Shown here one piece after another: positions 28,818 to 31,675 of a DNA stretch of 33,384 nucleotides (position 1 is its first letter; each line of letters opens with the position of its first letter). The notes under the pieces were generated by a model. It was not told the origin of the DNA. It ran no database searches and was given only the letters and a program-made list of their open reading frames with translations. This DNA is from an uncultured Ruminococcus sp. GTDB taxonomy: Bacteria > Bacillota > Clostridia > Oscillospirales > Ruminococcaceae. The stretch covers positions 1 through 33,384 of the forward strand of contig CAMWTO010000008.1 in NCBI GenBank assembly GCA_947177205.1, given 5' to 3'. A program made the translations under genes and the position numbers.

Positions 28818-29864
28818 ATGATGACATTTGCACAACTCGGACAACTGTCTTTGCAAATGCAGATGCTTTATGTGCAGGGAGTCAATTCCGGATCAAAGCC
28901 GGATGATCCTGTAGAATTGCCGGACAACGACCTGACATTTTCAGCTTCGGAATTTCCTGAAACACCCACAATAAAAATCTGTGCCGAAGCGTTCTTGAAT
29001 CTAAAAAAGTACACAGTAAGGCAAAGCACCTATCATAGATATATACGTTGTTTTAGAAATTCTGTGTTGCCATTCTTCGGAGATATGCAGTTAAATGCTG
29101 TCAGCGGAAAAGTGGTGCAAGAATTTGTCAATGCCATGCTCCGGCAAGGTATGAATCCGAAAGCGATTAAATATTGTGTGACGATGTTGAAAAGCGTTTT
29201 GTTGTGTGCTGAAGCTGATGGAATTATTACAATGCCGGTAATTCGCCCAAACTATCCGAAACAGTGCAAGCAGGAACGTCCGATTTTGTCCGATGAAGAT
29301 TTCAACAGGTTGAGTGAATATCTATTACAAGAAGGCAGCTCCATTTCAACGGCATTGCTGATTGTCATGCACACCGGAATCAGACTCGGCGAAGCGTGTG
29401 CCTTGCGGTGGTCTGATATGGATTTTAAGACCAACAGCATTTACATCCGGTACAGCGTCAAGCGTTACTACATACCGGAAGAAAGGCGAACCGTTTGCGA
29501 ACTCGGAGAACCAAAGACACTCAAGAGCAAACGGCGGATCTATATTTCAAAATGGCTTGTTGATGTTCTGAAACAGCGTCGGGAAACGGGTTTCATCTGC
29601 ACTGGAGTTGACAGATTTTGCAATCCCGAAACCATGCGAAACGCATTGAACAGGCGACTGAAGCAATTGAATATTCCGCACATCAGATTCCATGATTTGC
29701 GACACGGATTCGCTACCAGGGCTATCAATGGTGCAGGAGTCGATCCGAAGACGGTCGCAGAGATTTTGGGACACGAACACTGCGACATCACACTGGATAT
29801 TTACACTTCTTGCACGGCACAGATGCAAGTTGAAGCTATGGAAAAAATTCAAAAAATGAAATGA
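28818..29864 (+). CDS. int: Tyrosine recombinase integrase
   Basis: MHTGIRLGEACALRWSDMD; HIRFHDLRHGFATRAINGAGVDPKTVAEILGHEHCDITLDIYTSC. Confidence 0.92.
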   Translation: MMTFAQLGQLSLQMQMLYVQGVNSGSKPDDPVELPDNDLTFSASEFPETPTIKICAEAFLNLKKYTVRQSTYHRYIRCFRNSVLPFFGDMQLNAVSGKVVQEFVNAMLRQGMNPKAIKYCVTMLKSVLLCAEADGIITMPVIRPNYPKQCKQERPILSDEDFNRLSEYLLQEGSSISTALLIVMHTGIRLGEACALRWSDMDFKTNSIYIRYSVKRYYIPEERRTVCELGEPKTLKSKRRIYISKWLVDVLKQRRETGFICTGVDRFCNPETMRNALNRRLKQLNIPHIRFHDLRHGFATRAINGAGVDPKTVAEILGHEHCDITLDIYTSCTAQMQVEAMEKIQKMK

Positions 29865-29875
29865 GGAGTATTTAT

Positions 29876-30017
29876 AGTCCTATACAGTAGTGGCGAAGTG
29901 AATACGCCTGTAAGAATAAGGGTTGCCTGATTTTCAGGTGGAAACTGAAATACCAATCTTCTTACGAAGCCCCCACCTCTTAGCGAGTGTAACGAGCGTA
30001 GGTGGGGGAGAGTTCAC
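29876..30017 (+). mobile_element. 142-bp IS200/IS605-like mini-element (PATE/omegaRNA-like relic), no transposase
   Basis: Preceded by TTTAT. Left hairpin TACAG(tagtg)GCG...CGCCTGTA; right hairpin CCCCCACCT...AGGTGGGGG; right boundary TTCAC. Removing it rejoins TTTAT+G to an SD-spaced ATG. Confidence 0.6.
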
Positions 30018-30018
30018 G

Positions 30019-30351
30019 TTGAGAAGTGAGTTCGAGAAGCTGACAGGATTTTATCCGCCGGAAAATTTGTTTGCAGTGATTGAAGAATATTACACGCAAT
30101 CAGAATTGAATGTGGAAGATTTTTGCATACAATACAGATTCAATATGAATGGAATCGCCGAGAAGATTCAGAATGAGACAAACAGTCGATTATGTCGAGA
30201 GGCATTTCAAGCAGGAGCGATGTTGGGCGAAACTAAGCTTGAAAATGAAAAAGCTATTGTGAAAACTCTCGCTGTAATTCTGAAAAGAGCAGGCGAGATT
30301 AGTCCTGAAGATTTCAACGCCATTGTGAAACAGTGTGAGATACAAATATGA
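30019..30351 (+). CDS. Small phage protein, paralog of the 25775 gene, start codon interrupted by the mini-element
   Basis: TTG at 30019, (M)RSEFEKLTGFYPPENLFAVIEEYY. Track start 29923 lies inside the mini-element. Confidence 0.6.
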   Translation: MRSEFEKLTGFYPPENLFAVIEEYYTQSELNVEDFCIQYRFNMNGIAEKIQNETNSRLCREAFQAGAMLGETKLENEKAIVKTLAVILKRAGEISPEDFNAIVKQCEIQI

Positions 30352-30445: not shown

Positions 30446-30849
30446 CTTTTCAGTTTAGTAGAAAAGAGATTCGGAAGATTTTCAGGTTGATGGAGTCAAC
30501 AAGAAAGTTTTGTAAAATTTTCTGTGAAAATCTTGTGAAAACTTGTCAGAGATGATTAAAGGATTTAGTTATCAATGTTGTAGACTTTGTCCAATAAATG
30601 AAGCGGAGCGGAATGCTCTGTTTTGCACTGCCGATCAGGTTGTGCAAAACAGGTATTGGGTAAACACTACCCGTTTTGTCATGAATCTATTATTTTTTTG
30701 CTTTAAAAAATTTTTTTTAAAAATTTTCTCAAAAATCATTTTCCCAAGCTGAAAAAATAATTGTGATGATTGTGTGAAAATATTTTATCCTCTTTAAGCA
30801 AGAAGCCTCCTACTTCTATAGATGGAAGATGAATTGCATTCGAAAATAC

Positions 30850-30878
30850 TTGACAAGTAAAAGAATATATGATAGAAT
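30850..30878 (+). promoter_or_regulatory. Promoter TTGACA-17-TAGAAT of the accessory gene
   Basis: TTGACA 30850-30855, 17-nt spacer, TAGAAT 30873-30878. Confidence 0.65.
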
Positions 30879-31048
30879 AAAACTAACATAAAGATATAGC
30901 AAGATGCTGTATCTTCAGTCGCCTATGCCACAAAGAGTGAAAAATCATGTCATTGGTATGGAGATTGAAAGGAATGGATTATCGGTTAGCCGTTACTGCT
31001 TATTATGAATTTGGAATAATATAATAAAAATTACAGAGGTGAAATTTT

Positions 31049-31675
31049 ATGATATATTATCATGTTTCTTCATTTTTAAAGGAAGGTCAAAAACTCACTC
31101 ATGATACTAAAAATTATAAGGAAATTTGTGAATGGATATGCTCAACTAATGTTTCATCATATAAGGAATACATAAATCTCATTAAAAATTTGGAAAGTGA
31201 AGACGTTTTTAATAAAACAAATAGAGATGCATTAAAATGGTCATGTGAAAGCATTTTTGAAATGATTAGGTCTCAGTACTATAAGCATATGCCGAGTAGA
31301 GTTTGGGGTATATTCGTATCTGAATCTCTTAAAGAGGCATATTCATTTTATAAAAATTATAGAAAAGGCGAAACTAATATTTTTGAGATTCAACCAGAAA
31401 GCGAAGTTTATAAACTTGATATGGGTATATTTACCGAGGCTGAGGAACTATTAAGACGTGAGCAAAGTGATTCAAATTATGAAAAATCTATAAAATTAGC
31501 ACATGAATATTGGAAAAAAAACATCAGAACAAAGTGTATTGAATATTTATTTGACGAAAAAGAAGTTACTGTTGGCAAAAAAGTACTGAGCATACTTCTC
31601 ACGATAGTCGACGTAGCAAATAAGTCCGATATGACAGTTGCAGAGTTTGAATCAAAGATAGGCTTGAGAACGTAG
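31049..31675 (+). CDS. AT-rich accessory protein, possibly ADP-ribosyltransferase-fold (weak)
   Basis: 208 aa; IYYHVSSFLKEG, SRVWGIFVSESLKEAYSFYKNYR, CIEYLFDEKEVTVG. SD AGAGGTGA. Confidence 0.5.
   Translation: MIYYHVSSFLKEGQKLTHDTKNYKEICEWICSTNVSSYKEYINLIKNLESEDVFNKTNRDALKWSCESIFEMIRSQYYKHMPSRVWGIFVSESLKEAYSFYKNYRKGETNIFEIQPESEVYKLDMGIFTEAEELLRREQSDSNYEKSIKLAHEYWKKNIRTKCIEYLFDEKEVTVGKKVLSILLTIVDVANKSDMTVAEFESKIGLRT

Follow-up and report, generated by a model that had tools for sequence, protein, structure and literature searches.

A small prophage gene in the window has its ATG start codon split by a 142-bp segment; the window is the 33,384-nucleotide stretch from an uncultured Ruminococcus sp. 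that was analysed (contig C8; the parts of the insertion site given below lie on the forward strand). With a probability of about 0.8, we take the segment to be the right end of a TnpB-type IS200/IS605 element or of a PATE derivative, which TnpA inserted 3' of a TTTAT pentanucleotide and whose left part was lost. It is one more right end of the TnpB type; its odd feature is the missing left end.

Pfam and PHROG searches showed that the window carries prophage genes, including those for integrase, capsid and tape-measure proteins. The tyrosine integrase gene (28818-29864; PF00589, 7.5e-23; phrog_1, 5.7e-60) is located directly upstream of the insertion. Its stop codon is followed by 9 bases, AT, the 142-bp insert (29876-30017) and then G TTG AGA AGT GAG. 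The AT of the original ATG forms the final two bases of TTTAT (29871-29875), and the G of the split codon is at 30018. The interrupted gene is an open frame at 30019-30351, with a predicted present start at TTG 30019 and no match in Pfam or PHROG. Joining the flanks in silico yields GAGGAGTATTT ATG TTG AGA AGT GAG TTC, encoding a protein that begins MLRSEFEKLTGF, and restores the order GAGGAG-TATTT-ATG TTG AGA AGT GAG, in which the Shine-Dalgarno-like GAGGAG (29863-29868) lies 5 nt upstream of the AT. The final bases of the insert are GTTCAC, and neither a target duplication nor terminal inverted repeats are present at it. When the region was compared with its own genome by BLAST, the copies returned matched 29876-30018 (for the copy on C94, 95% over 143 bp); since their homology covers this interval, the edges of 29876-30017 are repeat boundaries. 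The earlier note had proposed an insertion inside a start codon, free of terminal inverted repeats and target duplication, whose excision recreates a Shine-Dalgarno sequence and an ATG; the exact coordinates, the joined flanks and real empty sites bear this out.

Empty sites were found at three loci in two genomes of the same genus, none of which holds the segment. At G031:C194 the end of the orthologous integrase gene is followed by GGAGATATTATTTTATG TTAAGAACTGG, the junction also being given as GGAGATATTATTTTATG TTAAGAACTGGATTTGAAAA. The second locus of that genome, G031:C65, reads TTATTTTATG TTAAGAAGTGAATTTGAAAA. At G006:C49 the two orthologous genes are present, the ATG is intact and there is no insert. 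These same-genus sites indicate that the insertion is real and precise, and they rule out the case that the earlier note had set against its own proposal, namely that the segment is conserved coding sequence in all relatives. The result is a clean natural start-codon insertion with empty sites in relatives. No strain with a full-length element at the same site was found among the genomes searched, one per species, whose draft assemblies have contigs ending in repeats. A blastn search of phage records gave no match to the region, a protein search of IMG/VR gave no prophage relatives, and a pattern search of IMG/VR detected one TnpB element, whose right end is normal.

The segment is a member of a repeat family. 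BLAST detected nine further copies or right-end fragments in the same genome, the copies on C94 (95%), C55, C197, C99 and C66 and the right-end fragments on C23, C4, C27 and C1. The tnpB parents anticipated by the earlier note were recovered in genomes of the genus: at G029:C20, G016:C111, G005:C116 and G006:C65 the sequence of the segment is the 3' end of tnpB together with the right end of the element. TnpB of G029:C20 measures 416 aa and contains the domains OrfB_IS605 and TNB, and its C-terminus (...LYSSGEVDTPVRIRVA, then the stop) falls inside the segment; no tnpA adjoins this tnpB within the stretch read. The tnpB gene is broken in G005:C116 and G006:C65. The window copy retains a tnpB remnant at 29877-29930, consisting of the last 17 codons and the stop (VLYSSGEVNTPVRIRVA), in the frame shared with the end of the G029:C20 protein. 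Judged by sequence, the parent is a TnpB-only (IS1341-type) IS200/IS605 element, and the 142 bp are the end of its tnpB plus its right end. With IS1341-type elements such as G029:C20 the window copy shares the right end, the omegaRNA region, the last tnpB codons and insertion at TTTAT with no duplication, but it lacks the left end, the promoter and nearly all of tnpB. A TnpB of the segment's type was not found in its own genome (assembly 88.5% complete). One Y1 TnpA is encoded there, at C126, and none lies in cis with the insert. The C126 TnpA is part of another IS605, which encodes a TnpB itself and has the right end GGATGTCAC, so that its action on the segment's family is an assumption.

The family also includes PATEs of ~390 bp. 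In these, ~14-18 nt separate TTTAT from a strong hairpin, after which come ATGAAT, a TTGACA/TATAAT-like promoter, an RNA region and finally the right end shared with the segment. The earlier note had described the segment as an IS200/IS605-like mini-element and had pointed to non-autonomous forms (PATEs). Non-autonomous relatives do exist, but the segment is not a complete one: it consists of the final 142 bp of a TnpB/omegaRNA element, without the family's left end, whereas complete PATEs measure ~390 bp. It resembles the PATEs of PMC3119063 in being short, in carrying no transposase gene, terminal inverted repeats or target duplication, and in having a palindrome near an end. In those PATEs a palindrome lies near each end, and the core deletions described keep both termini, whereas the window copy has the right palindrome only. 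The ~390-bp PATEs L021:8820-9205, L045, L063 and L054 carry a strong sigma70-like promoter before the omegaRNA region and no TnpB; they are candidate stand-alone guide RNAs for TnpB supplied in trans.

TTTAT lies directly before 13 of the 14 left ends read, the exception being G016:C111 with TTAAT. The 13 are intact left ends from the same and related genomes (C66, C108, C48, C172, window position 30784, two in G030, one each in G001, G029 and G006, and three in G005). The left-end scan is biased, because it required T[TC]TAT; left ends read by eye agree with TTTAT apart from the same exception. This count supports the view, expressed in the earlier note, that the insertion is of the IS200/IS605 type and lies 3' of a specific pentanucleotide. 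TTTAT is also reported to precede the left ends of solo-tnpB elements in Sulfolobus islandicus (PMC10640517). At the other end TTCAC, located at 30013-30017 in the window, finishes the right end of every aligned copy without variation and corresponds to the right cleavage-site sequence. Across the family GAATA precedes the left hairpin and GAAG precedes the right one. Aligned in parallel, GAATA and TTTAT give one G-T position followed by four complementary ones, and GAAG and TCAC give a G-T position, two mismatches and one complementary position. The same alignment of the IS608 pairs (taken from PMC5934647) gives two complementary positions, a mismatch and a further complementary position for AAAG with TTAC, and for GAAT with TCAA the same pattern as our right end. 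The pairing patterns of the family ends, compared with those of IS608, are suggestive.

DNA folding showed a strong subterminal hairpin at the right end (29970-30008, CCCCCACC...GGTGGGGG, with GAAG before it), which is kept across the family and is equalled in stability by 4 of 200 shuffled sequences. The left stem of the window copy is weak (24 of 200 shuffles fold as well), while none of 200 shuffles is as stable as a true left end of the family. The claim of hairpins at both ends therefore holds for the right end only, the only palindrome of the window copy to beat shuffles; the left stem is a predicted omegaRNA stem conserved in the family and not an IS605 left-end palindrome. The family alignment contains 32 predicted pairs, 3 of them changed on both sides, with a covariation term of only -0.18.

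ISDra2 reRNA is ~150 nt long and consists of the tnpB 3' end, the right end and 16 nt of flank (PMC8612924). Its active scaffold is 116 nt, 5' trimming is tolerated, and its pseudoknot joins a UUC near the 3' end to an upstream GAA at -105 (PMC10097598). The window copy has the same composition of tnpB 3' end and right end, and its scaffold, at 142 nt, is longer than that active form. It also contains an invariant GAA (29914-29916) at distance -104, a possible pseudoknot partner of the UUC at 30013-30015; the distance from GAA to the end ranges from 80 to 105 nt across the family, and RNAalifold assigns the invariant GAA to another stem. The two systems differ in sequence and in that the assembly contains no cognate TnpB. 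Neither the window piece nor the long copies reached the threshold of any Rfam family. A group I intron (IStron) was rejected on the lack of an Rfam match, and 142 bp is far too short in any case.

By analogy with ISDra2 reRNA (PMC8612924), an omegaRNA from the window copy would carry a 16-nt predicted guide at 30018-30033 (GTTGAGAAGTGAGTTC). This predicted guide matches the window's own empty site, and it has several mismatches at the known empty sites of relatives. The interrupted gene probably retains some translation from TTG 30019 by means of GGGGGAG (30004-30010), a sequence of the element that is located eight bases upstream of this TTG and partly within the right-end hairpin. A restart there costs the gene its first codon only. 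No promoter or terminator was predicted at the element.

Long forms of the family read GTAGCGGTGTGGAC-loop-AGTCC, with loops including TTAAC, TTCAC, TTTAA and TTGAT; at C197, TTCAC, the right cleavage sequence, lies immediately 5' of AGTCC. The window copy begins in the loop of this omegaRNA hairpin (GTGGAC-TTAAC/AGTCC in relatives), yet it abuts TTTAT exactly. Because its start is AGTCC, it is devoid of the 5' arm, the promoter and the family's left-end subterminal hairpin. An exact-pattern scan of GTDB genomes, carried out once, revealed a second TTTAT/AGTCC copy, 125 bp long to GTTCAC, in R. flavefaciens UBA1190, where the locus is unrelated to that in the window; no others were present in viral contigs or 398 family genomes. 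A search for an empty site of the UBA1190 copy gave only a partial match to its left flank, in G012. A third truncated copy, of 247 bp, is located in the window's own genome (G000:C94:6854-7100, L020) with the junction TTTTTTTAT/ACGGTCGATCG (TTTAT/ACGGTCG). It is likewise without left hairpin and promoter, starts ~105 nt further upstream than the window copy, and has a matching empty site at G032:C195 (TTTTTTAT/GATAA). All three truncated copies, few as they are, begin exactly at TTTAT, a pentanucleotide that makes up 0.17% of positions in own-genome sequence, and each short form is single-copy in its genome. The truncation is recurrent and precise, the left end being lost and the target pentanucleotide kept, and it separates the two functions of the element, moving and making guide RNA. 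The window junction shows no microhomology with the common TTAAC/AGTCC.

On balance, loss of the left part in place appears the most likely course. A Y1 transposase acting in trans would have inserted an IS1341-like, TnpA-dependent TnpB-type element, or a promoter-bearing PATE derivative, 3' of the TTTAT that overlaps the ATG of the prophage gene. TnpA acting on the true left end would then have cut after TTTAT and at an internal look-alike (TTAAC, TTCAC, TTTAA or TTGAT before AGTCC) and joined the outer ends, dropping the left hairpin and the promoter. What remained would be the last 17 tnpB codons, the omegaRNA scaffold and the right-end hairpin with GTTCAC. We infer that TnpA made these junctions from the recurrence of truncations at TTTAT, given its frequency, and from the lack of microhomology. 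Loss in place does not require the short form to be mobile and agrees with its single occurrence per genome; no right-end-like hairpin stands at the normal distance from the internal site. Possibly, though less likely than not, the short form is itself mobile: TnpA would have accepted the AGTCC sequence in place of a left end, and a unit of 142 bp (in UBA1190, 125 bp) would have been excised and inserted 3' of TTTAT. This reading accounts for the same observations. The common AGTCC start at two unrelated loci of two genomes points this way, as does a conserved GGCG/CGCC stem 17 nt from the junction, where true left ends have 17-18 nt. Against it, that stem is weak as DNA, the bases 5' of it are unlike the GAATA of true left hairpins, multiple copies are lacking, and the C94 copy begins elsewhere with a different left sequence. 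In the segment tree the UBA1190 and window copies do not group, with too small a signal to join or separate them. It is also conceivable, but unlikely, that an IS200/IS605 transposase repeatedly generates or mobilises elements that have no normal left end, giving guide-RNA-only right ends fused to their target, in effect self-targeting guides that outlive the transposon, here in a prophage.

We consider it improbable that a full element inserted and then lost its left part through an ordinary deletion (by replication or microhomology) that happened to leave TTTAT at the junction: TTTAT is kept exactly in all three truncated copies, the common loop offers no microhomology, and no flanking DNA is missing compared with the empty sites. 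Deletions are nevertheless frequent in IS605 elements, core deletions mediated by repeats have been described for Haloquadratum (PMC3119063), and a parent with the loop TTGAT, as at G006:C65, would share short homology with TTTAT. Retention of the insert for a function, either as a guide-RNA source used with another element's TnpB against empty-site phages or for regulating the gene downstream, is very improbable. The scaffold length exceeds that of the ISDra2 form still active after 5' trimming (PMC10097598), the stems and the right end are conserved, and the predicted guide following TTTAT equals the empty site. These points face a genome in which no TnpB of this type was found, an element at which no promoter is predicted, and relatives whose empty sites mismatch the guide. 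Origin from a reverse-transcribed omegaRNA was considered because the insert length is close to that of mature reRNA; it is not favoured, as the start of the C94 copy is ~105 nt further upstream, and a foreign guide is lacking at the 3' end of both inserts. Abortive gap repair after a TnpB cut was rejected, since a junction exactly at TTTAT is not expected from it.

Other copies and left ends were also observed. A 63-bp single-hairpin copy (G000:C1:17898-17960, L010; TTTTAT/CAAATTTTTGGAAG-hairpin-GTTCAC) resembles the 'terminal-only' core deletions of Haloquadratum (PMC3119063). A second IS605/PATE remnant, at 30784-30981 of the window, is the opposite case to the segment: TTTAT is followed by a left-end hairpin and a TTGACA/TAGAAT promoter, an 83-bp stretch is 77% identical to the RNA-like region of the G030:C17 element, and no right end was recognised in this interval. 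Downstream of it a DUF2441 protein (9e-9) is encoded at 31049-31675. At G000:C48 (L029), an ORF starts directly after an IS605-type left end; this ORF resembles an ISAs1-type transposase.
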